From the NCBI RefSeq assembly GCF_001412595.2, contig NZ_CP012640.2:930001-994000 (forward strand): a stretch of 64,000 nt of DNA, given 5' to 3'. Under the pieces are notes generated by a model. That model worked only from the letters and a program-made list of their open reading frames with translations, was not told the origin of the DNA and did no database searches. This stretch comes from Massilia sp. WG5 (lineage in GTDB: Bacteria > Pseudomonadota > Gammaproteobacteria > Burkholderiales > Burkholderiaceae_D). Below, piece after piece: positions 1 through 14,146 of the stretch (its first letter is position 1; the number at the start of each line of letters is the position of its first letter). The position numbers were made by a program, and so were the translations under genes.

Positions 1-207
1 CGAGGTCGCGGCCCAGCTGCGGAAGGCGCGCCGGGCCGCGTCCAGGGCGGCGTCCAGGTCTTCCTGCCGCGCCACCGGAATCACCCCGACCGCCGTCTCG
101 GTGGCAGGATCCAGCACCTCGCGTACGCCGCCGCCGGTGGCGGCGCGCCAGACTCCATCGATGTACAGGCCGTAATCGGCATACAGGCCAAGCTGCTCGC
201 GCTTCAT
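1..207 (-). CDS. NAD(P)-dependent aldehyde dehydrogenase, N-terminal part (runs off the left edge)
   Basis: Only the first 69 codons are in the window. They begin MKREQLGLYADYGLYIDG and continue through GVREVLDPATETAVGVIPVA and a helix rich in AALDAARRAF, the usual N-terminal pattern of the aldehyde dehydrogenase superfamily (first strand, then the NPATGE-like turn). Catalytic Cys and Glu lie outside the window. The start is ATG at 207, preceded by AGAGGAGACGACGC on the coding strand, a good ribosome binding site. It sits downstream of the ThDP-enzyme operon behind a terminator and has its own promoter element (227-301), which resembles the one in front of the operon, so co-regulation is likely. 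I infer that it oxidises an aldehyde made by the neighbouring enzymes. Confidence 0.85.
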   Translation of the reverse strand, partial: MKREQLGLYADYGLYIDGVWRAATGGGVREVLDPATETAVGVIPVARQEDLDAALDAARRAFRSWAATS

Positions 208-226
208 GCGTCGTCTCCTCTTTTCT

Positions 227-301
227 GGTGACTCCATTAAACCGCGCCGGCCCAGCCGCAACAATGTCGCCAAATGTGAAACTCTGGGACTATCCACCGA
301 T
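227..301 (-). promoter_or_regulatory. Promoter/operator element of the aldehyde dehydrogenase gene (copy 1 of a shared element)
   Basis: On the coding strand this stretch reads ATCGGTGGATAGTCCCAGAG, then TTTCACATTTGG, CATTGTTG and TTTAATG. It aligns end to end with 7433-7508 in front of the alcohol dehydrogenase operon (roughly three quarters identical, best in the first 31 bases). TTGTTG and TTTAAT lie 17 bases apart and could be -35 and -10 boxes. The conserved block just upstream of the -35 fits an activator site, possibly for the AraC-type regulator at 9423-10361. The match is seen directly; the function is inferred. Confidence 0.55.
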
Positions 302-334
302 CCGCCGGGCACGCGTTCCGCCCGCCGCAAAACG

Positions 335-357
335 AAAAAGCCGCCTCGAAAGGCGGC
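335..357 (-). terminator. Rho-independent terminator of the ThDP-enzyme operon
   Basis: On the minus strand, GCCGCCT-TTCG-AGGCGGC forms a 7-bp stem with a tetraloop, followed by TTTTT. It lies 31 bases after the stop of the ThDP enzyme and before the promoter element of the aldehyde dehydrogenase. Confidence 0.85.
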
Positions 358-387
358 CCGGACGGCGACGCGGCAACCGGCGACCGG

Positions 388-2298
388 CTACAGGCCCAGC
401 GTGTGGTAGCGCGCCTGTACCTCGTCCACCCAGTTGCCGACGTTCCAGGAACCATAGGCCCCCATCCCCGCAAGCGGATCCTCGCCGGCATACACCGGCA
501 CGTGGACCACCGACAGGCCCGGATGCGCATGCGCCGCGCGCAGCGCCGCCGCCAGCTCCTCGCGCGTGGCGCCGCCCCACAGCGCGCATACGCCCTGCAC
601 GCTCGAGCACAGCCGCACGTAGTCGACCGCGACCGAGTCGCTGGTGCGGAACTCGCGCCCGTACTGGGCATGCTGCAGGCTGCTGATCGCGGCCATGCGC
701 CGGTTGTCGAAGATGACGATCATGCCGCGGGTGCCGTGCTCCACCGCGTCGATCAGGGCTTGCGGATTCATCATGAACGAGCCGTCGCCGGTGAAGGCGA
801 TCGGATACGCGGGCCGCTGCGCCAGGCCCGCCGCCACCATGCCGCTGGTCGCGAAGCCCATGTAGGAGGCGCCGGTTTCCGTGAAGGTCTGGAACGGCGC
901 GTCGTCCTCGACGATCTGGAAGCCGTTGGCCTGGACGTCGCCGGCGTCGAAGTACTTGACGGCGCCGACTTCCCTGGCGAAGTCGTCCACGGTCTTGATC
1001 GCCACCGGCTGGGTCAGCACCGGACGCTGCCAGGCGGCGTCGGCCAGCGGCGGCGCGTCGAAGCGCTGTTTCGAGAACGCCAGCCATTCGGCCTTGCTGG
1101 CGGCGCAGGCCTGCAGCCATGGCGCGTGCTGTTCCGGCGGCACCGCGCCCACCGCCTCGGCGAGCTGCCGGACGACCGCGCCGATGTCGCCGATCAGCGC
1201 CAGCGTGCGGTTGTAGTGGGTGGCGTCGAGCGGGTCGCCATTGATGTTGACGACCGCCCGGACCTGCGGGTAGCCGGTGCCGGAGCAGTCGGCCTGGCAG
1301 ACGGCGCGGGTGCCGATGGCGATCAGGAGGTCGGCGTTCTGCATCGCGAAGTTGCCGCTGATCGAGCCCTTGCTGCCGCCGACGTGCATATTCTGCGGAT
1401 GCCGGTGCGGCAGCACCCCGGTCGAGCCGGGCGACAGCACCACCGCCGCGCCGATGCGCTCCGCCAGCGCCCGCAGCTCGGCTGCGAAACGGCGCGAACC
1501 GCCGCCGGCCTTGATGACGATCCGGCGCGCGTCGCGGATCAGCGCGGCGGCCTGTTCCAGGTCCTGGCTGTCGGCCAGCGCCTGGCGCGGCAGCTTCATC
1601 CGCTCGGGCAAGGCGGCCAGGTTGAGCGCCAGCGTGGCCGGCTGGGTGTTGATCGGCGCCAGCAGGAAGAAGGGACCGGCCTTGTAGGGGTCGTGCACGG
1701 TCTGGGTGCCGCGGCGCAGCGCGTCGCGCAATGCCTCGGGCGTGTGCAGCACGTAGGATTCGCCCAGCAGCGCGGCCATCTGCCCGTAGATGCCCTGGCG
1801 GCGGCGCGGAACCTGCTGCATGTTGTAGCCCTCGCCATGGGTGGTCTCGTCGCCATAGATGTGATAGACGCCCACGCCGTTCGACGCGGCCGCCAGCGCG
1901 CCGGCCATCGCCTGCAAGCCGCCCGGCCCGATCGAGGTGACCACCGCCGGTGTCTCGCCGTACTGCCAGGCCAGTGCGGTGGCCACGTGGGCCATCGCCA
2001 CTTCGTTGCGGAAGTTGAAGGTACGCGTCACGCCGGCTTCGTCGTACTGGCGCAGCACCTCGCCGATGTGGGTCGAGCCGTGCCCGAAGATCGCCAGGTA
2101 CTTGGTGACGCCCTGCTTGAGCAGGCCAAGGACCAGGCCTTCGGCCAGGGTCACCTGCATGCGCGCCGGCAGGGTCCCGGTCGCGAGCGCCGCTTCCAGA
2201 CCGCCGGCGGCCGCGATGGCCCGGGCGCGCTCGAGGGTCGCGTCGATTTCCGCCAGCCGCGCCGTGCTCGCGCCGCCTACACTGAATGGTTTGTTCAT
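388..2298 (-). CDS. ThDP-dependent enzyme of the IolD / acetolactate synthase type
   Basis: A 636-residue three-domain thiamine diphosphate enzyme. The N-terminal PYR domain has the activating Glu in FNFRNEVAMAH (about residue 95) and an IolD-like AIFGHGSTHIGEV segment. The central domain contains VVLSPGSTGVLPHRHPQN. The C-terminal PP domain has the Mg/ThDP motif TGDGSFMMN ending in VIFDNRRM. The length matches IolD (trihydroxycyclohexane-dione hydrolase) better than ordinary acetolactate synthases (about 560-590). The start overlaps the stop of the molybdenum C-half gene (ATGA), so it is the last gene of the operon. IolD and cyclohexane-1,2-dione hydrolase cleave cyclic 1,2-diones; a similar C-C cleavage is a reasonable guess here, but the substrate is unknown. 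It is not proposed to be a biosynthetic acetolactate synthase because no ilvH partner is present. Confidence 0.75.
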   Translation of the reverse strand: MNKPFSVGGASTARLAEIDATLERARAIAAAGGLEAALATGTLPARMQVTLAEGLVLGLLKQGVTKYLAIFGHGSTHIGEVLRQYDEAGVTRTFNFRNEVAMAHVATALAWQYGETPAVVTSIGPGGLQAMAGALAAASNGVGVYHIYGDETTHGEGYNMQQVPRRRQGIYGQMAALLGESYVLHTPEALRDALRRGTQTVHDPYKAGPFFLLAPINTQPATLALNLAALPERMKLPRQALADSQDLEQAAALIRDARRIVIKAGGGSRRFAAELRALAERIGAAVVLSPGSTGVLPHRHPQNMHVGGSKGSISGNFAMQNADLLIAIGTRAVCQADCSGTGYPQVRAVVNINGDPLDATHYNRTLALIGDIGAVVRQLAEAVGAVPPEQHAPWLQACAASKAEWLAFSKQRFDAPPLADAAWQRPVLTQPVAIKTVDDFAREVGAVKYFDAGDVQANGFQIVEDDAPFQTFTETGASYMGFATSGMVAAGLAQRPAYPIAFTGDGSFMMNPQALIDAVEHGTRGMIVIFDNRRMAAISSLQHAQYGREFRTSDSVAVDYVRLCSSVQGVCALWGGATREELAAALRAAHAHPGLSVVHVPVYAGEDPLAGMGAYGSWNVGNWVDEVQARYHTLGL

Positions 2299-3323
2299 GC
2301 TGGTGCCCGCTCCGTAATTTTCAGGGTCTGTTGACGGCCTTTGTGACGCAGCGCCTCCAGCACGCGTTCCGGCGTGGCCGGCAGCGTCCTGATGCGCACG
2401 CCGACGGCGTCGTAGATAGCGTTGACGATCGCCGGCGCGGTCGGCACCATGGCCGGCTCGCCAATGCCCTTCACGCCCAGCGGGTTGTTGGGATCGACCT
2501 CCTGGATCAGCACCGAGGTCACGTGCGGGACGTCGAGCGCGGTCGGCAGGATGTACTTGGCGAAGCTCGGGGTGGTGGTGACGCCATCCTTCTGGCTGTA
2601 CTCCTCCATCAGCGCGTGCCCGACCGCCATCACCACGCCGCCTTCGATCTGGCCTTCGACGCCGCGCGGATTGATCACCCGGCCGATGTCGTGCGCGGCC
2701 CAGACGCCCAGCACCTGCACCTCGCCGGAATCGGTGTCGACTTCGACCTCGGCGATCTGGGCGCCCCAGACATAGGACTTCCATGGCGTCGCATGGCCGT
2801 CGGCCGGATCGAGCGCCGTGTGCTGCGACGAGTACAGGCCGCTGCCGACGATCACGATGCCGTGCTCGAACTTGAGCGCGTGCACCGCCGCCGACATCGT
2901 GCACTCGTGGCGATTGTGCGGATCGTCCGCCCAGCAGCGTCCGTGGCGGGCGTGGATGCGCTCCGGCGCCACCTCCCAGCGCCTGGCCATCGCCTCCCTG
3001 AACTTGGCCATCGCGTCGCGGCAGGCCAGCGCCACCGCATTCGAGATCATGTAGGTCTGGCGGGTCGCGCCCGCGTGCGCGGCCTCCGGCACGCGCGCCG
3101 TGTCGTTGTCGCCCAGCGTGACGTCCTCGGGCGTGACGCCCATCTCGTCGGCGGCGACCTGGCACAGCACCGTCAGGATGCCTTCGCCCAGTTCCGTCAC
3201 GCCGGTCATCACCTTGACCGTGCCGCCGTCATCCAGTTCGACCCAGGCGGCGGCCCGGTCCATCGCCGCCGTGCGCGCGATGCCGTACCAGCCGCAGGCC
3301 ATGCCGCGTCCACGCTTCTTCAT
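2295..3323 (-). CDS. Xanthine dehydrogenase family, molybdenum-binding subunit, C-terminal half as a separate polypeptide
   Basis: 342 residues beginning MKKRGRGMACGWYGIARTA, which in the family is the start of the second half of the molybdopterin subunit. It continues with TELGEGILTVLCQVAADEMG, the AHDIGRVINP segment, and ends with GVKGIGEPAMVPTAPAIVNAI. The Glu of GIGEP is the expected catalytic base of molybdenum hydroxylases. Residue count and content show that the first half (with GGGFGGK) is missing; it is carried by the preceding gene. The ATG overlaps the previous TGA (ATGA) and is preceded by GGAGGTGGAGCA, a strong ribosome binding site, so this looks like a real separate chain rather than a sequencing slip. 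It should assemble with the products at 3320-5245 and 5238-6173. Confidence 0.85.
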   Translation of the reverse strand: MKKRGRGMACGWYGIARTAAMDRAAAWVELDDGGTVKVMTGVTELGEGILTVLCQVAADEMGVTPEDVTLGDNDTARVPEAAHAGATRQTYMISNAVALACRDAMAKFREAMARRWEVAPERIHARHGRCWADDPHNRHECTMSAAVHALKFEHGIVIVGSGLYSSQHTALDPADGHATPWKSYVWGAQIAEVEVDTDSGEVQVLGVWAAHDIGRVINPRGVEGQIEGGVVMAVGHALMEEYSQKDGVTTTPSFAKYILPTALDVPHVTSVLIQEVDPNNPLGVKGIGEPAMVPTAPAIVNAIYDAVGVRIRTLPATPERVLEALRHKGRQQTLKITERAPA

Positions 3324-5245
3324 TGCTCCACCTCCTGCGCCTGCTGTTGCTGGACCTGCGGCCCGGCCGCCCTGGCCTCGTGTTTCGGCAGGCGGGCGCC
3401 CAGTTCGCATGGTGCGCGGGCGCCGGCCAGCCCGAGGTCGCGGCGCTGCTGCCCGAGCGCCTCGCGGTGCGGGACGCCCGGCTCCCATTGCGCGGCCTCG
3501 GCCGCGCCATCGATGCACTTCAGGAGCGCGACCGAACGGACGATATCCTGCTGCGTGTGCGTGTTGGCGCCGTCGCGCATCGCGTTGACGCGGCGCAGCT
3601 CGATCGGATCCATCTTCAGGTGTTCGGCCACCTGGTCGAGCATCGCCTCGGTCGCGAACTCGGACTGGAAGGCGCCAAAGCTGCGGAACGCGCCGCTCGG
3701 GGTGTTGTTGGTATAGACGGCGATCGCGTCGACCCAGACATTCGGGATCCGGTATGGACCGGGGCCGAGGATCGAGGCCTTGTTCATCACCGCCGGACTG
3801 GACATCGCGTAGGCGCCGCCGTCGGCCAGCATCTTCATTTCGCTGGCGACGATGCGGCCATCCTTCATGACGCCCATCCGATACCGGATCGTGAACGGGT
3901 GGCGCTTGGCCGATACGGCGAGCGATTCCTCGCGCGTGAACACCAGCTTGACCGGGCGCCGGGTCTTGATCGCGGCCAGCGCCAGCATGCCCTGGTAGAT
4001 CATGTCTTCCTTGCCGCCGAAGCCGCCGCCGATCGCGCTCATCACCATGCGCACCTTGTTGATCGGCCGGTTCAGGATCGTGGCAAGCATGTGGCGATGG
4101 TGGGTGATGTTCTGGCTCGGCGAATGCACCACGACCGTGCCGTCCGGATCCAGCCAGGCGACGCCCGCCTCCGGCTCGAGGTAGGCGTGCTCGATCGCCT
4201 GGGTGCGGAACACGTCTTCGAACACATAGTCGGCCTGCTGGAAGCCCTGCTCGACGTCGCCCTTGCGGATCCTGGTGTGCTTGCACAGGTTGCCCGGGTA
4301 GGCCTCGTGTAGCTGCGGTGCGCCCGGACCGATGGCTTCCTCGGGGTCGAACACGCCCGGCAGCGGCGCGATGCGCAGCTTGATCTTCCTGATCGCCGCG
4401 CGCGCGATGGCCGGACTCCCGGCCACCACCGCGCAGATCTGTTCGCCGGTATGGCGCACCACGCCGCGCGCCAGCACCGGCTGGTCGTGGTAGAACACGC
4501 CGAAGCCGTCCTTGCCTGGCACGTCGTCGCAGGTGATCACGGCTTCCACGCCCGGCATCGCGCGCGCCTCGGACACGTCGAGCAGCTCGATGCGCCCGTG
4601 CGGCACGGGGCTCCTCAGCACCTGCATGTGCAGCATGTTCGTGAGCGACATGTCGGCGGCGTACTGCAGCCGGCCGGCGACCTTGGAAGGCGCGTCGAGC
4701 CGGCGATAGCTGGCCCCCATGAAGTCGCCCTCGACTTTTTCCTCGTCCAGCGCGGCCGGCGGCCTGCTGCCGTTCAGGACGTCGCGCGCCAGTTCGACCG
4801 CCTCGAAGATCTTCTGGTAGCCGGTGCAACGGCAAATATTGCCGGACAGGCCCTCCTTGATCTCGTCCAGGCTGGCGTGGGGATTGCGGCGCAGCGTCGA
4901 GGTCGCGGCCATCACCATGCCCGGGATGCAGAAGCCGCATTGCGAGGCGCCGGTGCGATGAAAGGCCTTCTGCAGCACGGTCAGCTCGCCGCTTTCGTGG
5001 TCGGCCAGGCCCTCGACGGTGTCGACCTTGCAGCCTTGCGCCTTGGCGGCCGGGGTCAGGCAGCTCTTGATCAGCTTGCCGTCGACGAACATCGAGCAGG
5101 TGCCGCATTCGCCGGCCCCGCAGCCTTCCTTGTTGCCGGTCAGGTGCAGCTCGTCGCGCACGAAATCGAGCAGGCGCAAATGCGGCTCGCAGCGCTTTTC
5201 GACCAGACGGCCATTGACCGTCATGCTTATTCTTGCTTCATGCAT
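3320..5245 (-). CDS. Fused [2Fe-2S] and molybdenum-binding N-half subunit of a xanthine dehydrogenase-type hydroxylase
   Basis: 641 residues. Positions 1-160 are the two-cluster iron-sulphur module: plant-type ferredoxin cysteines in GCGAGECGTCSMF with a later C, then CGFCIPGMVM and ICRCTGYQ of the second cluster. From about 175 the molybdenum subunit begins (YRRLDAPSKVAGRLQYAADM) and includes the GGGFGGK motif and the PSGAFRSFGAFQSEF segment. It stops after a Gln/Glu-rich tail, exactly where the second half would follow; that half is the next gene. Fusion of FeS and Mo modules recalls Desulfovibrio aldehyde oxidoreductase, but there the chain is unbroken. The start ATG at 5245 follows GAGGAGGTATCCC and overlaps the FAD gene by 8 bases. 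Confidence 0.85.
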   Translation of the reverse strand: MHEARISMTVNGRLVEKRCEPHLRLLDFVRDELHLTGNKEGCGAGECGTCSMFVDGKLIKSCLTPAAKAQGCKVDTVEGLADHESGELTVLQKAFHRTGASQCGFCIPGMVMAATSTLRRNPHASLDEIKEGLSGNICRCTGYQKIFEAVELARDVLNGSRPPAALDEEKVEGDFMGASYRRLDAPSKVAGRLQYAADMSLTNMLHMQVLRSPVPHGRIELLDVSEARAMPGVEAVITCDDVPGKDGFGVFYHDQPVLARGVVRHTGEQICAVVAGSPAIARAAIRKIKLRIAPLPGVFDPEEAIGPGAPQLHEAYPGNLCKHTRIRKGDVEQGFQQADYVFEDVFRTQAIEHAYLEPEAGVAWLDPDGTVVVHSPSQNITHHRHMLATILNRPINKVRMVMSAIGGGFGGKEDMIYQGMLALAAIKTRRPVKLVFTREESLAVSAKRHPFTIRYRMGVMKDGRIVASEMKMLADGGAYAMSSPAVMNKASILGPGPYRIPNVWVDAIAVYTNNTPSGAFRSFGAFQSEFATEAMLDQVAEHLKMDPIELRRVNAMRDGANTHTQQDIVRSVALLKCIDGAAEAAQWEPGVPHREALGQQRRDLGLAGARAPCELGARLPKHEARAAGPQVQQQQAQEVEQ

Positions 5246-6173
5246 GGGATACCTCCTCGCCGTGTCCGGCATCGCGCGCGACCGCGAAGCCGCACTCCTG
5301 CAGGGCGTTGACGATGCCCCGCTCGACAAAGTTGACCAGCACCTCGCGCCGGTATTCGACCCGGCTGCGCGAACGCACATGGTGTTCGGCCATCTGCGCC
5401 GCATCCGCGATCAGCTCGGCGCCGATCTCGCGCCCCGCCAGCAGGCGCTCGACTTCCGGCAGGCGCATGGCCACGGGACCGACCGCGCCGATCGCGATCC
5501 GCACGTCGTGGAAGCGGACGCCGCTCGCATCCAGCCGCGCCAGCACGGCCAGGCAAACCGTCGAGATCACCAGCGAGCGGCGGTGCCCGACCTTCTCGAA
5601 CGCGGTGCCGTAGGCGCCCGCGGGCTCGAGCTCGATGTGGCCCAGCAGCTCGCCCGGCGCCATCGCGGTCTTGCCGGGGCCCTGCAGGTAGTCGGCCAGC
5701 GCCAGCGTGCGCGACCTCGGCTCGCCCGCCTCGTGGCGCCACAGCGTCACGCTCGCGTTCTGGGTGAGCAGCGGCGGCATCGCGTCGCCGGCCGGCGAGG
5801 CGTTCACCAGGTTGCCGCCGACCGTCGCCTGCTCGCGGATCTGGTCGTCCGCGAACCAGATCGCGCAACGGCGCAGCACCGGTGCGTGCTGCAACAGCAG
5901 CGGGTGGCGCAGGAACTCGGCGATCGTCGTGTTGGCGCCGATCCGCAGGCGTCCCTGCTCCATCCGCACGCCGGACAGCGGAGCGATGCGGGTGACGTCG
6001 ACCAGGGCCTCGTAGTGCACGTCGCCGGCCCGCCCCTCGCGCGCCCAGGTGAACAGGTCGGTCCCGCCCGCGATCACCCGGGCCCTGTCGCCGTAGCGCG
6101 CCAGGTGCGCGAACGCTTCGTCCAGGCTCGCCGCCGAAATGTAGTTGTCCCAACTAAGCATAGTCTCCGCCAT
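5238..6173 (-). CDS. FAD-binding subunit of the xanthine dehydrogenase-type hydroxylase
   Basis: 311 residues of the FAD-binding domain plus CO-dehydrogenase flavoprotein C-terminal domain. Visible signatures are the first FAD loop VIAGGTDLFTW (about residue 35), the second loop TVGGNLVNASPAGDAMP (about 110) and the C-terminal IAIGAVGPVAMRLPEVE. Electrons from the molybdenum site would pass through the two iron-sulphur clusters of the next gene's product to this flavin. I chose the ATG at 6173 (MAETMLSW); a second in-frame ATG at 6161 is also possible. The gene follows the alcohol dehydrogenase after 29 bases and overlaps the next gene by 8, placing it in the middle of the five-gene operon. 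Confidence 0.85.
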   Translation of the reverse strand: MAETMLSWDNYISAASLDEAFAHLARYGDRARVIAGGTDLFTWAREGRAGDVHYEALVDVTRIAPLSGVRMEQGRLRIGANTTIAEFLRHPLLLQHAPVLRRCAIWFADDQIREQATVGGNLVNASPAGDAMPPLLTQNASVTLWRHEAGEPRSRTLALADYLQGPGKTAMAPGELLGHIELEPAGAYGTAFEKVGHRRSLVISTVCLAVLARLDASGVRFHDVRIAIGAVGPVAMRLPEVERLLAGREIGAELIADAAQMAEHHVRSRSRVEYRREVLVNFVERGIVNALQECGFAVARDAGHGEEVSHA

Positions 6174-6202
6174 CCTCTCCGTTGCCAGCCCTGTTGCCTG
6201 CC

Positions 6203-7369
6203 TTAGTGCTTCATCGTGACCACGACCTTGATCGCATCGTCGATGCGCTCGCGCGCGTACCGGAGCGCAGTCGGCACCTCGTCCAGCGGGAAGGTGTGCG
6301 TGTGGATCAGCTTGGCCGGGAAGCGGTTCATGCCCATCAGCGAGGCGGCGCGGTGGGTGGCGCTCTTGCCCTCGCCGCGGATGCCGAACACGTAGATGTT
6401 GTTGCGCACCAGGTAGGCCACGTCCACCGGCACCGGCTGCTGCGGGAAGGCGGCCAGGCAGATGCGTCCGCCGCGCTTGAGCATGCGCGCGGCGTCGTTC
6501 ATGGCGTTCGGCGCGCCCGAGCATTCGAGCACGTAATGGGCGCCGCCGCCGGTGATTTCGCGCACGCGCTCGACCGCGTCCTCGTGCGTGACGTTGATGG
6601 TGTGGTCGGCGCCCAGCTTGCGGCCCATCTCGAGGCGGTTGTCGCGGGTGCCGGTCAGGATCACCTGGTCGGCGCCCAGCGCCTTGGCCACGCCCACCCC
6701 CATCAGGCCGATCGGACCGGGGCCGGTGACCACCACCGATTGGCCGGCGATCAGGCCGCCCAGCACATCGAGTCCGTACATCGCGGTGCCGGCGGTGACG
6801 ATCAGCGTCGCTTCCTCGTCGCTCATGTGGTGCGGCACGTGCACCATGGTGTTGATGTGATTGATCGCGTACTCGGCAAAGCCGCCGTCGGTCGTGAAGC
6901 CGTTGGCGCGATGCCCCTTGTCGACCTCGCCGTAGTTCTTGCCGTAGTTGAGGCAGGAGGTGTACATCCCTTCGCGGCAGCGTTCGCAGCGGCCGCAGCC
7001 GGCATGCACTTCGACCGCGACCCGGTCGCCGATCTTGTACTCGTCGACGCCGTGCCCCAGCTTGACCACGGTGCCCATGTACTCGTGACCAGGAGTGAAG
7101 CCCTTGTTGAACGGCAGCCCGCCCCGGATCTGCGCCGGCGGCCCATGCTTGATGATCTCGAGGTCGGTGGCGCACACCGCGATCGCATCGATACGCACCA
7201 GCACCTCGGCGGGACCCGGCTCCGGCACCGGTTTCTCGACCAGGGTCAGTTCGTCGGGGGCGCCGAGCACCCACGCCTTCATCGTTGCCGGAATCTGGTA
7301 ACGGTCATCGTGCCCGGCCTTCGCCTGGGTCGCTGCGGTTTGCTGGGGCGATTCCAATACTGCTGCCAT
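6203..7369 (-). CDS. Zinc-containing alcohol dehydrogenase (MDR family, threonine/polyol dehydrogenase-like)
   Basis: 388 residues of the zinc-dependent medium-chain dehydrogenase family. Catalytic zinc ligands are Cys in AVCATDLEI and His-Glu in TPGHEYMG. Structural zinc ligands are the four cysteines of CGRCERCREGMYTSC. The Rossmann fold is marked by VVVTGPGPIGLMG. The N-terminus (about 30 residues before MKAWVLGAPDEL) is longer than usual. The ATG at 7369 is 7 bases after GAGGAG; an ATG at 7375 is too close to it. This is the first gene of the operon and follows the promoter element at 7433-7508. I infer that it oxidises a secondary alcohol or polyol to the ketone handled by the later enzymes. 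Confidence 0.85.
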   Translation of the reverse strand: MAAVLESPQQTAATQAKAGHDDRYQIPATMKAWVLGAPDELTLVEKPVPEPGPAEVLVRIDAIAVCATDLEIIKHGPPAQIRGGLPFNKGFTPGHEYMGTVVKLGHGVDEYKIGDRVAVEVHAGCGRCERCREGMYTSCLNYGKNYGEVDKGHRANGFTTDGGFAEYAINHINTMVHVPHHMSDEEATLIVTAGTAMYGLDVLGGLIAGQSVVVTGPGPIGLMGVGVAKALGADQVILTGTRDNRLEMGRKLGADHTINVTHEDAVERVREITGGGAHYVLECSGAPNAMNDAARMLKRGGRICLAAFPQQPVPVDVAYLVRNNIYVFGIRGEGKSATHRAASLMGMNRFPAKLIHTHTFPLDEVPTALRYARERIDDAIKVVVTMKH

Positions 7370-7432
7370 GATCATGCTCCTCTATTGATGTGAAATGTCG
7401 TCTCCGTCCGTCAGGCGCAGCTTCGCATGTCC

Positions 7433-7508
7433 GGTAACGTCATTAAATCCCGGGCGGCATATCCCCGACAATGCAGGCAAGTGTGCAAGTCTGGGACAAT
7501 CCACCGAT
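7433..7508 (-). promoter_or_regulatory. Promoter/operator element of the alcohol dehydrogenase-molybdoenzyme operon (copy 2 of the shared element)
   Basis: On the coding strand it reads ATCGGTGGATTGTCCCAGAC, then TTGCACACTTGCC, CATTGTCG and ATTTAATG. Nearly every block recurs in the same order at 227-301. TTGTCG and TTTAAT are 18 bases apart (possible -35/-10), leaving a leader of roughly 65 bases before the ATG at 7369. The strongly conserved part lies immediately upstream of the -35. I infer an activator-dependent promoter. Confidence 0.55.
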
Positions 7509-7555
7509 GTGATTCCCGGGTGGCCGTGCCGCGGCGCATGCATTGCACCGGCACG

Positions 7556-7583
7556 AAAAAAAACCGCCTCGTGTGGAGGCGGC
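7556..7583 (-). terminator. Rho-independent terminator of the transporter gene
   Basis: On the minus strand the stem CCGCCTC/GAGGCGG has a 5-base loop and is followed by an eight-base T run. It lies 33 bases after the transporter stop and separates it from the alcohol dehydrogenase operon. Confidence 0.85.
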
Positions 7584-7615
7584 TGTCGAACACGGCGCGG
7601 ACTCGCCGCCACCGT

Positions 7616-9121
7616 TCAATGGTGCTGCGCGGCGGAGACGGCGTGGGCCGGCACGGGCTTGGCCGTCACCTGCCCTTCCGGCATCCCGAACAGGACCAGC
7701 CCGGCCGCGATGATCACGGCACTGAGCACGGTGAGGATGCTGCCGATCTTGAACAGGTCCTTGAAGCTGAAATAGCCGTACGCATAGGGCAGCACGAACG
7801 ACGGGCTTTCGGTGACCAGGATGAAGTGGGTGGAGGCCGCGAAGCCGGACGCCATCGCCAGGGCCAGCACCGGGAAGTTGTGCTGCTGCGCATAAGCGAT
7901 GACGAAGGGTGCATTCACGGCCGCCGAAGCGCCGAAGCTGGAGAAGCCGAGCGAATCGATGGCGACCAGCACCGTGACGGCGAAGGGCTGCAGCCACAGC
8001 GGCAGCTCGGCCATCGGTCCGAGCGCGCTCTGCGCCACCCAGGTCGCCAGGCCGCTCTCCTTGGCCGCCATGCCGAGCGTGAAGCCGCCCACCACCAGCA
8101 GCAGCGCGCCCCACTCGATCCCCTTCTCGATCGGGCTCCAGGACTCGAAGGCGCCCAGCCGCGGCACCGACAGCAGGCCGAGGATGATGAGCGAGACCAG
8201 GGAGATCGGAAGCTTGTTCCAGTCGCCGCTCAGCCAGAGGCCGGCGCCGAGCACGAACACCACCATCGTCGTGACCTCCGCGCTGCTCCAGCGGCCCATC
8301 TCGCGCAGCTCCTCCCTGATGCGCTCCTTACCGAAGGGCAGTTCCTTCATTTCGGGCTTGAACATCTTCAGGATCAGGAAATAGGCCACCGCCGTGATCG
8401 CCACCGCGATCGGCGTTCCCAGCAGGACCCAGTCGAGGAAGGAAACGTGAATGCCGGCGTTCTTCGTCAGGAAGCTCATCGTGATGATGTTGGCCGTGAC
8501 GCCCGAGGGCGTGGCGATCCCGCCGAGCGTCGAGCCCAGCATGATCGTCATCATCAGGCCCCGGCCGAAATTGCTCTCGCCCGGCTTCACGTTGGCCGAA
8601 CGCAGCAGGCCGACGCTGATCGGCAGCATCATCGCGACCACGGCCACGTCGCTGAGGAACATCGAGGCGATGAAGGAGACGCCCATGTAGATCGCGAGGA
8701 CCGGCTTGACGCAGGTGCCGGACAAGGACAGCAGCAGGTAGGTTACGCGTTTGCCCAGGCCCGAGCGGGTAAATGCCACGGAGAGCGCGAGCACACCGAT
8801 GAGGAAGGGAACGAAACTGTCGCCGAAGGCCTGGCTCATCGACTTGTTCAGGTCGATGATGCCGACTGCGTGCAAGAGCACCGGCAACATCATCGCCGTG
8901 ACCGGTACCGGCATGGCTTCCGTGACCCACCACACCACGGCGACGCTCATCACGCCGAGGGTCAGCATCGCCTGGTGCGGCATGCCCTCGGGCGCCGGCA
9001 GGAAAAAGGATAAGGCAAGCAGCGCCCACCCCAGCATGAAAAACAGGCATTTGCGGTTCGCTGGGCGGTGCCCGGCTTCACCGCTGAGCGAACTTACTCC
9101 GGGCTCCGTTGCAGTCAGCAT
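7616..9121 (-). CDS. DASS-family (SLC13-type) sodium:dicarboxylate or related anion symporter
   Basis: 501 residues with 11-12 hydrophobic segments. Family signatures are the first hairpin TEAMPVPVTAMMLPVLL (about residue 68), the central TLGGIATPSGVTANII and the second-repeat DSLGFSSFGASAAVN. The N-terminal 25 residues are hydrophilic and probably cytoplasmic. It should bring an organic anion across the inner membrane. The ATG at 9121 follows AGGAGACAAC. It lies between the AraC-type regulator and the molybdoenzyme operon on the same strand, so the anion is likely the substrate or a precursor of that pathway; which anion cannot be told from sequence. Confidence 0.85.
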   Translation of the reverse strand: MLTATEPGVSSLSGEAGHRPANRKCLFFMLGWALLALSFFLPAPEGMPHQAMLTLGVMSVAVVWWVTEAMPVPVTAMMLPVLLHAVGIIDLNKSMSQAFGDSFVPFLIGVLALSVAFTRSGLGKRVTYLLLSLSGTCVKPVLAIYMGVSFIASMFLSDVAVVAMMLPISVGLLRSANVKPGESNFGRGLMMTIMLGSTLGGIATPSGVTANIITMSFLTKNAGIHVSFLDWVLLGTPIAVAITAVAYFLILKMFKPEMKELPFGKERIREELREMGRWSSAEVTTMVVFVLGAGLWLSGDWNKLPISLVSLIILGLLSVPRLGAFESWSPIEKGIEWGALLLVVGGFTLGMAAKESGLATWVAQSALGPMAELPLWLQPFAVTVLVAIDSLGFSSFGASAAVNAPFVIAYAQQHNFPVLALAMASGFAASTHFILVTESPSFVLPYAYGYFSFKDLFKIGSILTVLSAVIIAAGLVLFGMPEGQVTAKPVPAHAVSAAQHH

Positions 9122-9422
9122 GTTGTCTCCTAATGTTTTATTTCCTCAGGCAGCGAATTCTTTCTTGAATTCGTGCGTTTCCGGCATCGCATCTGCAGTG
9201 CTTTTTATCCGGGGATGCAGCGAATCCAAAGTATCACTGCTGTCGACGCAGTGAACAGGGACAGGATTGTCGAGTATCGGGAGTTTCAGGCTTTTTGGCC
9301 GACGCGCTGACCTATGGTGAGTAGAGACATTGCCTACCTTCAGTTTTCTCTGTCTGAAGACAACTTTTACCTTGAAATTCGGACCTCATGGCCGTGGCAG
9401 TCGGCGCCGGGCCGCGGTGATG
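9122..9422 (-). promoter_or_regulatory. Gene-free stretch holding the transporter promoter
   Basis: No coding signal. On the minus strand it contains TGTCCCTGTTCACTG (near 9255-9270), which weakly recalls the TGTCCCAGACTTGCACA block of the shared element. Nearer the transporter start it has an inverted repeat CGAATTC-TTTCTT-GAATTCG (9158-9177). Either could be an operator; neither is certain. Confidence 0.35.
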
Positions 9423-10361
9423 TCAGGATTCGAGGTGGACGGCTGCGCGCACGCTTTCACGGTACTGGCGGGGCGTCGTGCCGAACCATTGCCGGAATCG
9501 GCGTGTGAAGTAGCCTTCGTCGGCGAATCCGGATGCGTGGGCGACGTCTGCGATGCGCATTGGCGTATTGGCGAGCAGTTCCTGCGCGCGCTCCATGCGC
9601 CGTTCCGTGACCATGTCGGTGAAGGTCTTGCCGACCTCGTTCTTGAGCAAATGCGCCAGGTAGTTCGGAGACAGGAATGCCGCCGCTGCCGCTTCCGTCA
9701 GGCTCAGTTCGCGGGACAGGTTGTCGCGAATATAGCGCGCCACGCGCAGCAATGCCTCGCGGCGGCCGGCCGAGCGGGTCTTCTGGCTGGAGAGCTGCAG
9801 CAACTGATCGCCATGACGGCGGCAGGTCAGGCCGATCACCTGGAGAAGCATGCCGCGCAGAATTTCAAGCGAGCCAAAACCGCGCCGCGAGTTTTCCTCA
9901 ATCATTTGCGCGAGCAGTGCCTCGGTATCGGCAAGGTCTTTCCCCTCCAGCAGGAAGTCCGTGTACTCCTGGTACAGGAAAGGCGCCAGCTCCGGCACCC
10001 GCGACACCGGGACATCCTCCAGGTCGAGCGGATCGACGTCGAGGTCGGGACGCAGGAAGCGTTGGGAAAAATTGATGACGATAAAACGCGAACCGGCCGG
10101 CAATGGCACCAAGTGGACGCGGTAAGGCAGCACGAAGGTCAGCGTGCCGCGCCCGACCGGACGCACCGCGCCGCCGACCGTCTGCTGTGTTTCGCCCTCG
10201 AGCGTGACCATGATCTGGAAAAATTCATGGCGATGCGGCCGCGCGAGGGGCGTTCGAACGCTCTGGTCGCGAATATCGAATTCGAGATAATCCGCACGCT
10301 CACCCATTGCGTAGGTGTGCACCGTGTCGTTTGCGTGGGGAGATCCGTACGTGTCCGGCAT
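9423..10361 (-). CDS. AraC-family transcriptional regulator
   Basis: 312 residues. An N-terminal cupin-like effector domain (about 30-160; PHRHEFFQIMVTLEGE is the typical metal- or ligand-binding start) is followed by two helix-turn-helix motifs. The first is LSLTEAAAAAFLSPNYLAHLLKNEVGK (about 225-250, here named by its ends). The second is MRIADVAHASGFADEGYFTRRF, closed by FGTTPRQYRES. It probably responds to the substrate of the adjacent cluster and activates the transporter, the molybdoenzyme operon and the aldehyde dehydrogenase, whose shared upstream element it could bind. The ATG at 10361 has only a weak ribosome binding site. Confidence 0.9.
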   Translation of the reverse strand: MPDTYGSPHANDTVHTYAMGERADYLEFDIRDQSVRTPLARPHRHEFFQIMVTLEGETQQTVGGAVRPVGRGTLTFVLPYRVHLVPLPAGSRFIVINFSQRFLRPDLDVDPLDLEDVPVSRVPELAPFLYQEYTDFLLEGKDLADTEALLAQMIEENSRRGFGSLEILRGMLLQVIGLTCRRHGDQLLQLSSQKTRSAGRREALLRVARYIRDNLSRELSLTEAAAAAFLSPNYLAHLLKNEVGKTFTDMVTERRMERAQELLANTPMRIADVAHASGFADEGYFTRRFRQWFGTTPRQYRESVRAAVHLES

Positions 10362-11791: not shown

Positions 11792-12499
11792 TCATGATGC
11801 TTTGATGATGCCGATCTCGGCGAGGAGCCCGGCCGCAGTAGCATAGGTCTCTCTCGATGTATCTCTTCCGCGAACCAGGCCTGGACTCTCCGACAAATCA
11901 TCAGGACCCGAAAAATGCAGGCCCAGCACATCGGCGGGTCGCCTCGTGAAGCGGGCAACACGGTCGAGGGAGGCACCGGAGACGTTTGCTACCAGAACCG
12001 CGCTTGGTTTGCCAATTTCGTCCAGCCATCGAAAGAACTTTTCCCGAACTTCCGCTTCGATATGCATCACTTCGATGATGAGATCGCAGTCTTTCAGGTG
12101 ATGAAACTTCACGGTGGCGGAAAACAGCGCAAGGCGCCTATCGCGCTTGTCTTCAGCCAGCGTCCCGCTCTTCACCGAGGTTTCATAAGCCGAGCGAAGC
12201 AGCGCCAGCCCCTGATCAAGCGTATCCCTCTTGTCAAAAACCGTTACCGGGATGTCGGCATTGAGCACGCCTCTGGCGATGCCGATGCCGATGCTGTTCG
12301 CGCCGATGATCCCTACGCGTCCAACCGAGCGCATGATGTCATTGGCAGGGTGCTCGCCATGAACTGCGGTTTCGCGTACGGGCCGGATATGCAGGTCGGC
12401 GTGGATATGGTGATGATCGCCCGAACCGCCGCCCGTCACGTCATCGCTTGCCGGGACAAGCGCGTGACTGCTTCCCGGGATCGTATTTGCATTATTCAT
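11792..12499 (-). CDS. 3-hydroxyacyl-CoA dehydrogenase-like protein, NAD-binding domain only, probably inactive
   Basis: 235 residues. After about 55 low-complexity His/Gly-rich residues comes the Rossmann domain of 3-hydroxyacyl-CoA dehydrogenases: GRVGIIGANSIGIGIARG, VTVFDK, KDCDLIIEVMHIEAEV, VLVANVSGASL and VLGLHFSGP. The usual GxGxxG is altered (GANSIG). The NPV after the catalytic His is replaced. The position of the catalytic Glu, two to four residues before the conserved RG, is Gly. The protein ends where the C-terminal helical domain should begin. It lies 66 bases downstream of isocitrate lyase on the same strand and shares its lower GC. The ATG at 12499 follows GGAGTGAAA. It is either a decaying gene or a non-enzymatic NAD/CoA-sensing protein. 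Confidence 0.65.
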   Translation of the reverse strand: MNNANTIPGSSHALVPASDDVTGGGSGDHHHIHADLHIRPVRETAVHGEHPANDIMRSVGRVGIIGANSIGIGIARGVLNADIPVTVFDKRDTLDQGLALLRSAYETSVKSGTLAEDKRDRRLALFSATVKFHHLKDCDLIIEVMHIEAEVREKFFRWLDEIGKPSAVLVANVSGASLDRVARFTRRPADVLGLHFSGPDDLSESPGLVRGRDTSRETYATAAGLLAEIGIIKAS

Positions 12500-12565
12500 T
12501 TTCACTCCAGGATTTGGTTGAGGATGTGGACGCCGCGATCGGCCGACGTCCAATCTCGCGTGCCG

Positions 12566-14146
12566 TCAGAACTGATTCATGGTGTTGTGTTTTCCTCCGG
12601 CCTTCAGCGCCGCTTCCCCGCTGAAATAGTCCTTGTGATCGTCGCCAATGTCCGAACCCGACATATTCTGGTGTTTGACACACGCAATTCCCTCCCGGAT
12701 TTCCTTGCGCTGCACACCCGCCACATAGCCCAGCATGCCCTGGTCACCGAAATAATCCTTTGCGAGCTTATCCGTCAACAATGCAGCGGTATGGTAGGTC
12801 GGCAGCGTAATCAGGTGATGGAAGATGCCGGCTTCGCGCGACGAGTCGGCCTGGAAAGTGCGGATCTTCTCGTCCGCAATTCGCGCCAGCTCCGAATCAT
12901 CGTATTCAGCGCTCATCAGCTTGCTTCGCTCGTAGGCACCGACATCCTTGCCGTCGGCTTCCATGCCGTCGAACACCTGCTGACGGAAGTTCAAGGTCCA
13001 GTTGAACGATGGGCTGTTGTTATAGACCAGCTTTGCGTTTGGAATGGCTCTGCGGATCTCCTTGACCATGCCGCCGATCTGGCCGATATGAGGTTTTTCG
13101 GTTTCAATCCATAACAGGTCGGCGCCATTTTCGAGGGAAGTAATGCAGTCCAGGACACAGCGCGCTTCACCCGTTCCCTCCCGGAACTGGAACAGATTGC
13201 TCGCAAGGCGCTTGGGGCGCACGAGCTTCCCTCCCCTGTTGATGAGCACGTCGCCATTTTTCGTCGACTCCGGCCTTACTTCTTCAGCGTCCAGAAAGGC
13301 GTTGTACTGGTCGCCGAGATCGCCGGGTTCGCGCGTATAAGCGATCTGCTTCGTCAGGCCTGCGCCGAGAGAGTCGGTGCGGGCGACGATCACGCCGTCG
13401 TCCACGCCCAATTCGAGAAAGGCGTAACGGACGGCGCGGATCTTGGCAAGGAAGTCTTCGTGCGGTACGGTGACTTTGCCGTCCTGGTGACCACACTGCT
13501 TCTCATCGGACACCTGGTTTTCAAGTTGAATACAGCAGGCGCCCGCCTCGATCATTTGTTTGGCCAATAAGTAGGTGGCCTCAGCGTTACCAAAACCGGC
13601 ATCGATGTCCGCGATGATGGGCACCACGTGGGTTATATGATTGTCGATCTTTTGCTGGATGGCTTCGCGGTCGGCGCCTGAAGCATCATCCAAGCGGCGG
13701 AATAGATCGCCGAGCTCGCGCGCATCGGCTTGGCGCAAGAAGGTATACAGCTCCTCGATCAGTGCCGGGACCGCGGTCTTTTCATGCATCGACTGATCCG
13801 GCAGCGGGCCAAACTCCGAACGCAGGGCCGCAATCATCCATCCTGACAGGTAGAGGTAGCGACGATCGGTACTGTTGAAATGTTTTTTGATCGAGATGAG
13901 TTTTTGTTGACCGATAAATCCGTGCCAACATCCAAGGGACTGCGTGTACTTCGATGGATCGGCGTCATAAGCAGCCATATCTGCACGCATGATCGCGGCG
14001 GTATAACGCGCAATGTCGAGGCCAGTCTTGAATCGGTTCTGGGCGCGCATCCGCGCTACAGACTCGGGATTGATTGCGTTCCAGGCACTCCCATATTTTG
14101 CTTTCATACTGGAAATTGCTTCGATATCGTTTTGAAACTGAGGCAT
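12566..14146 (-). CDS. aceA: Isocitrate lyase (glyoxylate shunt), KQCGH type
   Basis: 526 residues, matching the longer Pseudomonas-type isocitrate lyases. It cleaves isocitrate to glyoxylate and succinate. The active-site loop is DEKQCGHQDGK, with the catalytic Cys preceded by Lys-Gln rather than the Lys-Lys of E. coli AceA. IADIDAGFGNAEAT and VIVARTDSLGA are further conserved active-site strands, and YNNSPSFNW is the substrate-binding segment. The start follows AGGAGTAATAA. Base composition is visibly lower in GC than in flanking genes, suggesting acquisition or a different selection history. The upstream region carries a perfect palindrome (14263-14288) that could bind a repressor. No malate synthase is nearby. 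Confidence 0.95.
   Translation of the reverse strand: MPQFQNDIEAISSMKAKYGSAWNAINPESVARMRAQNRFKTGLDIARYTAAIMRADMAAYDADPSKYTQSLGCWHGFIGQQKLISIKKHFNSTDRRYLYLSGWMIAALRSEFGPLPDQSMHEKTAVPALIEELYTFLRQADARELGDLFRRLDDASGADREAIQQKIDNHITHVVPIIADIDAGFGNAEATYLLAKQMIEAGACCIQLENQVSDEKQCGHQDGKVTVPHEDFLAKIRAVRYAFLELGVDDGVIVARTDSLGAGLTKQIAYTREPGDLGDQYNAFLDAEEVRPESTKNGDVLINRGGKLVRPKRLASNLFQFREGTGEARCVLDCITSLENGADLLWIETEKPHIGQIGGMVKEIRRAIPNAKLVYNNSPSFNWTLNFRQQVFDGMEADGKDVGAYERSKLMSAEYDDSELARIADEKIRTFQADSSREAGIFHHLITLPTYHTAALLTDKLAKDYFGDQGMLGYVAGVQRKEIREGIACVKHQNMSGSDIGDDHKDYFSGEAALKAGGKHNTMNQF

Follow-up and report, generated by a model that had tools for sequence, protein, structure and literature searches.

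A conserved gene cluster around an uncharacterized ThDP-dependent enzyme in Massilia sp. WG5 seems to degrade a small sugar-like or ring-shaped acid

Genes of the cluster

We analyzed a gene cluster at the start of a 64,000-nucleotide stretch of the 6.2 Mb genome of Massilia sp. WG5 (G000:C1:930001-994000, which we call the window). Eight genes at positions 1-10361, all on the minus strand, encode an AraC-family regulator, a DASS-family carrier, a zinc-dependent alcohol dehydrogenase (ADH), the three subunits of a molybdenum (Mo) hydroxylase, an enzyme that depends on thiamine diphosphate (ThDP), and the beginning of an aldehyde dehydrogenase (ALDH). The Mo hydroxylase comprises a FAD subunit, a [2Fe-2S] protein with the N-terminal Mo-cofactor domain (FeSMo), and a protein with the C-terminal Mo-cofactor domain (MoC). 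A previous reading of this DNA, made without database searches (the sequence-only reading), had named the same families, which family models confirm, and had counted nine genes instead of eight (Table 1). Overall, the cluster is real and conserved, it is larger than had been described, and it is partly as that reading interpreted it. The conserved genes seem to degrade a small sugar-like or ring-shaped acid via an uncharacterized ThDP enzyme.

Table 1. Genes and terminator-like hairpins of the cluster (positions within the window).
Feature	Positions	Strand	Evidence
AraC-family regulator, 312 aa	9423..10361	-	Pfam HTH_18, AraC_binding
DASS-family sodium/anion symporter, 501 aa	7616..9121	-	TIGR00785, 219.3 bits vs. 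cut-off 198.6, passed
Terminator-like hairpin, DASS/ADH gap	7562..7584	-	9 pairs, 6 GC, T-rich tail
Zn-dependent ADH, TDH/IolM-like, 390 aa	6203..7375	-	tdh 221 bits, IolM NF041097 198 bits, both below cut-off
FAD subunit of Mo hydroxylase	5238..6173	-	PF00941, PF03450
FeSMo, [2Fe-2S] + N-terminal Mo-cofactor domain subunit, 641 aa	3320..5245	-	Fer2, Fer2_2, Ald_Xan_dh_C, MoCoBD_1
MoC, C-terminal Mo-cofactor domain subunit, 342 aa	2295..3323	-	MoCoBD_2
ThDP-dependent enzyme, 636 aa	388..2298	-	TPP_enzyme N/M/C
Terminator-like hairpin, ThDP/ALDH gap	338..359	-	9 pairs, 6 GC, T-rich tail
SSADH-like ALDH, first 69 codons, continues past window edge	1..207	-	whole gene = L005:10747-12207 minus

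The five genes from the ADH to the ThDP enzyme overlap or nearly touch, as the sequence-only reading noticed. The gap between the ADH and FAD genes is about 29 nt, and the next three junctions are overlaps of 8 nt (FAD/FeSMo), 4 nt (FeSMo/MoC, ATGA), and 4 nt (MoC/ThDP). This tightly packed block is flanked on both sides by terminator-like hairpins, which that reading had missed. Our scan found 7 hairpins, compared to a mean of 5.2 in shuffled sequence, so their number is unremarkable; the two at the edges of the block have the most GC pairs of the 7, and both are intergenic. Because of these two hairpins, a single transcript for the whole cluster is unlikely. The eight genes are probably not one operon, as had been proposed, and a second transcript probably begins with the ALDH.

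The cluster continues past the edge of the window, where the sequence-only reading could not see it. After the ALDH come an IlvD/Edd dehydratase, PntA, PntB, an XdhC-type maturation factor, and a second AraC-family regulator. The IlvD/Edd protein passes the model for its sugar-acid dehydratase subfamily (NF004784, 823.9 bits vs. a cut-off of 539), and the solved structures that are nearest to it include L-arabinonate and galactonate dehydratases. The ALDH resembles SSADH and scores below the cut-off (491 vs. 646 bits). The ADH has the length of IolM (scyllo-inosose 3-dehydrogenase) and fails the IolM model (198 vs. 450 bits).

Conservation of the cluster

To find relatives of the ThDP enzyme, we scanned genome contigs at a loose threshold. 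This gave at least 571 candidates, of which we kept the best 80, and we added five plasmid loci (from seven plasmid matches), for a total of 85 loci. The two loci from the window's own genome were excluded. These 85 are the closest relatives, and many are from metagenome-assembled genomes or truncated contigs, so the counts hold for this sample only.

The FeSMo gene is present in 38 of the 85 loci, which we call Mo-type or type A. Among these, the FAD gene is present in 38, MoC in 37, and the ADH (at 60% identity or more) in 37; the Mo module is always on the same strand as the ThDP gene. The full order ADH-FAD-FeSMo-MoC-ThDP-ALDH-IlvD occurs in 25 of the 38 loci and is partly present in 10 more. 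In three Mo-type loci from Bacillota (one of them truncated), the ThDP gene comes first and is followed by ADH-FAD-FeSMo(-MoC). Where the ADH was matched, it is 68-87% identical across Mo-type loci and 72-77% identical in the three Bacillota. Since the same gene order recurs in several phyla, the cluster is more than chance, and it does look catabolic. Downstream of the ThDP gene, among the 71 loci with at least 3.5 kb of sequence there, 46 have a match to the ALDH and 47 have a match to IlvD.

The carrier varies. Just 2 of the 38 Mo-type loci have a DASS match, while TctC-family genes are found in 32. For example, a plasmid of Phaeobacter piscinae carries the window's set of enzymes, with a tripartite tricarboxylate transporter replacing DASS.

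The genes co-occur in distant genomes. In our sample of whole genomes, however, the ThDP gene is in only 1 of 62 from the genus (the window's own) and in at least 4 of 398 from the phylum. FeSMo is in at least 1 of 145 genomes from the family and at least 2 of 398 from the phylum, and both of the latter are beside a ThDP gene. (The window's own genome is among the positives in all four counts, and the family and phylum surveys scored the top few candidates per genome, so they give lower bounds.) More broadly, members of the ThDP family occur in Proteobacteria (among them the SAR11-type genome HIMB114), Lachnospiraceae, Spirochaetota, and Actinomycetota. We found no description of this cluster in the literature, which is a weak negative because subscription journals were thinly covered.

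Some loci have other neighbors. In a Rhizobiales variant (L019, L026, L037, and L044), the Mo module is present and neither ALDH nor IlvD has a match within the locus; recurring neighbors, not all in each locus, include another Gfo/Idh protein, an alpha/beta hydrolase, a PF04199 cyclase, 3HCDH, an SDR, a 2-hydroxyacid dehydrogenase, and a PF04909 amidohydrolase. On a Salipiger plasmid (L087:11881-22195), the ThDP gene is found with genes for a tartronate-semialdehyde-reductase-like protein, a protein annotated as heme-binding, a TIM-barrel isomerase, a TRAP transporter, ALDH, and IlvD. In Pseudovibrio denitrificans (L085:10001-14300), the ThDP and IlvD matches are each broken into two pieces, possibly by frameshifts or sequencing errors. 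In HIMB114, the gene that immediately follows the cluster's IlvD gene is bacteriorhodopsin-like (proteorhodopsin; L045:15229-15978).

The molybdenum hydroxylase

For both Mo chains, the best solved structure is nicotinate dehydrogenase (3hrd_A for FeSMo and 3hrd_B for MoC), whose Mo protein is divided at the same point. The split is not a frameshift: the two genes overlap at ATGA, and of the 37 Mo-type relatives (out of 38) that have both pieces, 34 have a stop codon that closes the first frame at or before the second match. An annotated Phaeobacter plasmid likewise lists two Mo genes. The other 3 of the 37 have a single, fused Mo chain (L010 and, from Bacillota, L079 and L080). In other words, the split is genuine and usual, but it is not universal. 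Given these three fused chains, two of them from Bacillota, the split could have arisen later or been undone.

Placement of the ThDP enzyme

The sequence-only reading described the ThDP enzyme as similar to IolD, and several comparisons agree. In a tree with 43 rows, the ThDP family forms its own clade (support of 100/100, stem of 4.67) that is sister to IolD (99/98) and apart from the others, though just two rows are IolD and both stems are long, which can yield a false sisterhood. It does not group with any characterized family of unrelated function. When profiles were compared, the ThDP family scored 293 against IolD (16 rows), 255 against an unnamed family (2 rows), and 210 against AHAS-like proteins (8 rows), but these alignments are of unequal size; IolD against the AHAS-like rows scored 273. 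(We labeled rows as AHAS-like by their resemblance to the solved AHAS set, not by a family model.) The ThDP family is 27% identical to IolD in the profile alignment. Among well-conserved columns, 13 unite the ThDP family with IolD to the exclusion of the AHAS-like rows, and 7 go the opposite way. The 13 include H73, D150, Q162, and D531, at the positions of the GHG, GD, QQ, and DN motifs.

Other comparisons weigh against kinship to IolD, and with it against the pathway that we propose below. The ThDP enzyme scores 186 bits against the IolD model (TIGR04377), far below the curated cut-off of 715, and an AHAS-like paralog from the same genome scores higher (193 bits). With a plain hidden Markov model (HMM) of the ThDP family, one row of the unnamed family (161) outranks both IolD rows (143 and 121); the other row of the unnamed family scores 128, and the AHAS-like rows score 100-117. 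As IolD comes out as the nearest characterized family in only some of these tests, the case for kinship to IolD is moderate.

The sequence-only reading also named cyclohexane-1,2-dione hydrolase (CDH) as a ThDP enzyme that cleaves cyclic 1,2-diones; our results do not support CDH as the nearest relative. An AF2 model of the ThDP enzyme (pLDDT of 90.2) has the general fold of AHAS and pyruvate oxidase. With this model as the query, Foldseek ranks AHAS 1st to 4th (TMq of 0.72-0.75) and CDH 22nd (TMq of about 0.76), so the predicted fold does not single out CDH. By sequence, the match to CDH is also no closer (51 bits vs. 93 bits for AHAS). CDH is absent from the 50 VIA-align rows that were listed, which excludes nothing.

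We did not find a characterized member of the ThDP family in this analysis. Many relatives carry the name IolD in JGI data. Judging by the model scores of the enzyme and its paralog, that name is not justified for the window's protein, and members like it could be miscounted as inositol degradation.

Alternative front and back ends

In 32 of the 85 loci (type B), a dehydrogenase of the Gfo/Idh/MocA family (blast cluster 1) accompanies the ThDP enzyme and takes the place of the ADH and the Mo module, and 20 of these 32 also have a sugar ABC transporter. The Mo module is absent from all 32. This mutual exclusion is limited to cluster 1: a second group of Gfo/Idh proteins (cluster 21) is present in eight loci, six of which are Mo-type, so an IolG-like protein and the Mo module can occur together. 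We scanned five of these Gfo/Idh proteins (four from cluster 1 and one from cluster 21). For four of them, IolG was the top NCBIfam model, and for the other it came second; none of the five passed it (TIGR04380, 88.6-153.5 bits vs. a cut-off of 355). The two annotated type B regions that we examined are both Labrenzia plasmids. As for the transporters, one type B solute-binding protein is nearest to AcbH, and one type A TctC protein is nearest to 4x9t and to Bug/terephthalate binders.

Do the ThDP enzymes of types A and B differ? We compared 37 Mo-type rows (the window and 36 loci, with L072 a doubtful member) to 28 Gfo-type rows, all from Proteobacteria; outside the comparison were nine other rows and 11 proteobacterial rows that belong to neither type. 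At a threshold of 85%, a single residue was specific to the group (N95 in Mo-type, Q95 in Gfo-type), which suggests that the two types carry out the same reaction and have two ways of making its substrate.

The back end seems to vary as well. An RpiB-family gene is present in six deep-branching loci, where no IlvD match was found (one, L074, is only 5.3 kb long). In L080, the RpiB-family protein passes a model of RpiB/LacAB type (NF006753, PRK09273; 229.5 bits vs. a cut-off of 137), and it is followed by IclR and by a KduD-like SDR that scores below the cut-off. The RpiB/LacA/LacB family includes DhuI, whose reaction resembles that of KduI from the KduI/IolB family, according to PMC12838403. 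RpiB could therefore occupy the slot that IolB has after IolD. We can place the L080 protein only in the RpiB/LacAB family, and it may be an isomerase of free uronates. Transketolase halves are also found in some loci (by Pfam in L081, and as matching open reading frames, or ORFs, by clustering in L074 and L079). In two other deep-branching loci, L077 and L084, the ThDP gene is followed by an ALDH that is about 50% identical to that of the window's genome, and no RpiB was detected (L084 is a short contig). The simplest reading of all of these loci is that they share the ThDP step and that the front and back ends can be exchanged.

A possible pathway

We give a probability of roughly 40% to the following reading: this is a modular, patchily distributed catabolic cluster, whose ThDP enzyme would open a ring-type substrate to a free aldehydic sugar acid. 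The data establish which families the genes belong to, their order, its conservation, and the exchange of modules; every catalytic step, the order of the steps, and the substrate are inferred. The DASS carrier would import an anion, and the ADH (from secondary alcohol to ketone) and the Mo hydroxylase, which is of the xanthine-dehydrogenase type, would produce the substrate of the ThDP enzyme. That enzyme would cleave a C-C bond adjoining a carbonyl, the likeliest mode being the opening of a polyhydroxylated ring in the manner of IolD, and the product would be a free, non-phosphorylated, uronate-type aldehyde. The ALDH would oxidize this aldehyde, and the resulting acid would be dehydrated by the IlvD/Edd enzyme, yielding a 2-keto-3-deoxy acid for a GarL/HpaI-type aldolase, encoded elsewhere, to split. 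PntAB may adjust NADPH/NADH, and XdhC may serve the Mo enzyme.

Ring opening is our preferred mode for the ThDP enzyme, as it is favored by the motifs that are shared with IolD and by type B, which has a single dehydrogenase. Both back ends (ALDH and IlvD, or an RpiB/DhuI-type isomerase) would fit an aldehydic sugar acid as the product. For the last step, the window's genome encodes GudD (glucarate dehydratase), GarL, and GarR, all above their cut-offs and with GarL and GarR beside the glucarate dehydratase. HIMB114, which has the cluster, encodes one HpaI/GarL-like aldolase (below the cut-off), and no match to the aldolase family PF01081 was found there. So, a 2-keto-3-deoxy acid could be split in both organisms. 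Among nine ORFs that we scanned downstream of IlvD in six loci, there was no next-step enzyme that the loci have in common. As for the front end, PMC6365646 reports that P. simiae requires a Mo-dependent dehydrogenase to oxidize free deoxyribose and to grow on it, and not to grow on deoxyribonate.

In its most specific form, which is possible but which we rather doubt, this would be an undescribed phosphate-free route: a new family of ThDP enzymes would open a ketone or dione derived from a cyclitol and so produce a free uronate, with two front ends (an IolG-like dehydrogenase, or the ADH with the Mo hydroxylase) and two drains (oxidation and dehydration by IlvD, or an RpiB-type isomerase). 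The Mo front end would admit an acid.

Besides the doubts about kinship to IolD, several points count against ring opening to a sugar acid. The TctC-family genes of most Mo-type loci and the DASS carrier here point to an acid as the substrate, and the substrate of IolD is a neutral dione. We know of no Mo enzyme that produces an inosose or a dione. The sugar ABC transporter of type B makes it hard to name a single common substrate. The cluster 1 dehydrogenase is not just upstream of the ThDP gene in 3 of the 32 type B loci (L075, L077, and L081; in L077, it is 4.9 kb away and on the opposite strand). Despite room downstream, 25 of 71 loci have no ALDH match and 24 of 71 have no IlvD match. And the gene content of L079 (RpiB, the transketolase halves, and a DAK-type kinase) would be compatible with a four-carbon sugar as well.

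The carriers of type A, being of the acid type, favor a keto acid. This suggests an alternative that is unlikely, though it survives better than the others: the ThDP enzyme could be a 2-keto-acid decarboxylase that acts on an imported and oxidized sugar acid. The Mo enzyme would convert an aldehyde to an acid, the ADH would convert the 2-hydroxy group to a 2-keto group, and the ThDP enzyme would yield an aldose or uronate that is one carbon shorter, to be followed by ALDH and IlvD. Besides suiting the carriers, a decarboxylase would suit a Mo enzyme that oxidizes aldehydes, the AHAS-like fold of the ThDP enzyme, and the resemblance of the sugar-acid dehydratase to L-arabinonate and galactonate dehydratases. 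The cluster 21 proteins in six Mo-type loci and the prevalence of TctC strengthen this alternative at the expense of ring opening. However, the one Gfo/Idh dehydrogenase and the sugar ABC transporter of type B would not give a 2-keto acid from a neutral sugar, and more residues of the ThDP enzyme (including the four at motif positions) side with IolD than with the AHAS-like rows.

The sequence-only reading had instead proposed the breakdown of an alicyclic or cyclitol-type carboxylic acid, with hydroxylation by the Mo enzyme, oxidation to a vicinal dione by the ADH, ring opening by the ThDP enzyme, and oxidation by the ALDH. This would use the acid-type carrier, the IolM-length ADH, and the leaning of the ThDP enzyme towards IolD, but we consider it improbable. 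The targets of Mo hydroxylases are aldehydes and electron-poor sp2 carbons, not the C-H bonds of a saturated ring; the proposal omits the IlvD step; and type B arrives at the same ThDP step with no Mo enzyme. Least probable is that the Mo enzyme hydroxylates an N- or O-heteroaromatic acid, like the nicotinate dehydrogenase that both Mo chains resemble (down to the split), and that the ThDP enzyme opens the ring later, because the other conserved genes are dehydrogenases, an ALDH, and a sugar-acid dehydratase, and because type B lacks the Mo enzyme.

If the ThDP reaction were defined, it would reveal what a widespread operon acts on (we examined 85 loci, and the scan at a loose threshold gave at least 571 candidate relatives), and it could extend the known ways of breaking down rings or sugar acids.

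Other features of the genome

We looked for two genes that flank the cluster in 41 genomes each from the genus, and both were present in 11 relatives. An empty site, as expected from a recent insertion, could not be demonstrated: the two genes were on different contigs in 10 of the 11 and about 0.7 Mb apart in the other. We found no tRNA near the left flank. At 11792-14146 of the window, on the minus strand, are a PRK06498-type isocitrate lyase (1046 bits) and then a short 3-hydroxyacyl-CoA dehydrogenase-like protein in which only the NAD-binding domain was matched. The isocitrate lyase is found in 16 of 41 genomes from the genus, counting the window's own. Elsewhere in this genome, the two small contigs C2 and C3 (L115-L119) have five partial matches to the DHDPS family with similar scores, four on C2 and one on C3, which possibly reflect repeated sequence.

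Comparison to known systems

The RpiB-family isomerase and KduD-like SDR of L080 resemble the DhuI/DhuD pathway for uronates (PMC12838403). The L080 genes differ in being beside a ThDP enzyme and a Mo hydroxylase, and the SDR is below its cut-off.

Like nicotinate dehydrogenase (3hrd), the Mo hydroxylase has a Mo protein that is split between the two MoCoBD domains and a separate FAD subunit. Unlike it, Fer2 and Fer2_2 are fused to the MoCoBD_1 chain, so that there is no separate small FeS subunit; the partners in the operon are sugar-acid enzymes; and three relatives have a fused Mo chain. CDH (2pgn, 4d5g) shares the AHAS-like ThDP fold, with TMq of about 0.76 and about 20% identity, but the window's enzyme is no closer to CDH than to AHAS.

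The ThDP enzyme shares its fold with IolD, along with the residues at the GHG, GD, QQ, and DN motif positions that set it apart from the AHAS-like rows. The surroundings are also similar in part, with a Gfo/Idh dehydrogenase before the ThDP gene in type B and an RpiB-family isomerase nearby in the six deep-branching loci. Canonical iol clusters are defined by at least three of iolB, iolC, iolD, and iolE, according to the definition given in PMC9430895. Here, the ThDP family is a separate clade with low identity to IolD and a low score on its model, and ALDH and IlvD take the place of IolB, IolC, and IolE; models for these three were not among the best 25 families for each of the nine window proteins and ten L005 proteins that we scanned.

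Finally, non-phosphorylative pathways for sugar acids, of the Weimberg type, combine an IlvD/Edd dehydratase with an ALDH. In the scans of the window and of L005, the listed hits of the cluster's proteins included no lactonase model. The cluster resembles those pathways in having an IlvD/Edd dehydratase that is over its subfamily's cut-off beside an SSADH/KGSADH-like ALDH, and it differs from them in that a ThDP enzyme precedes the pair.

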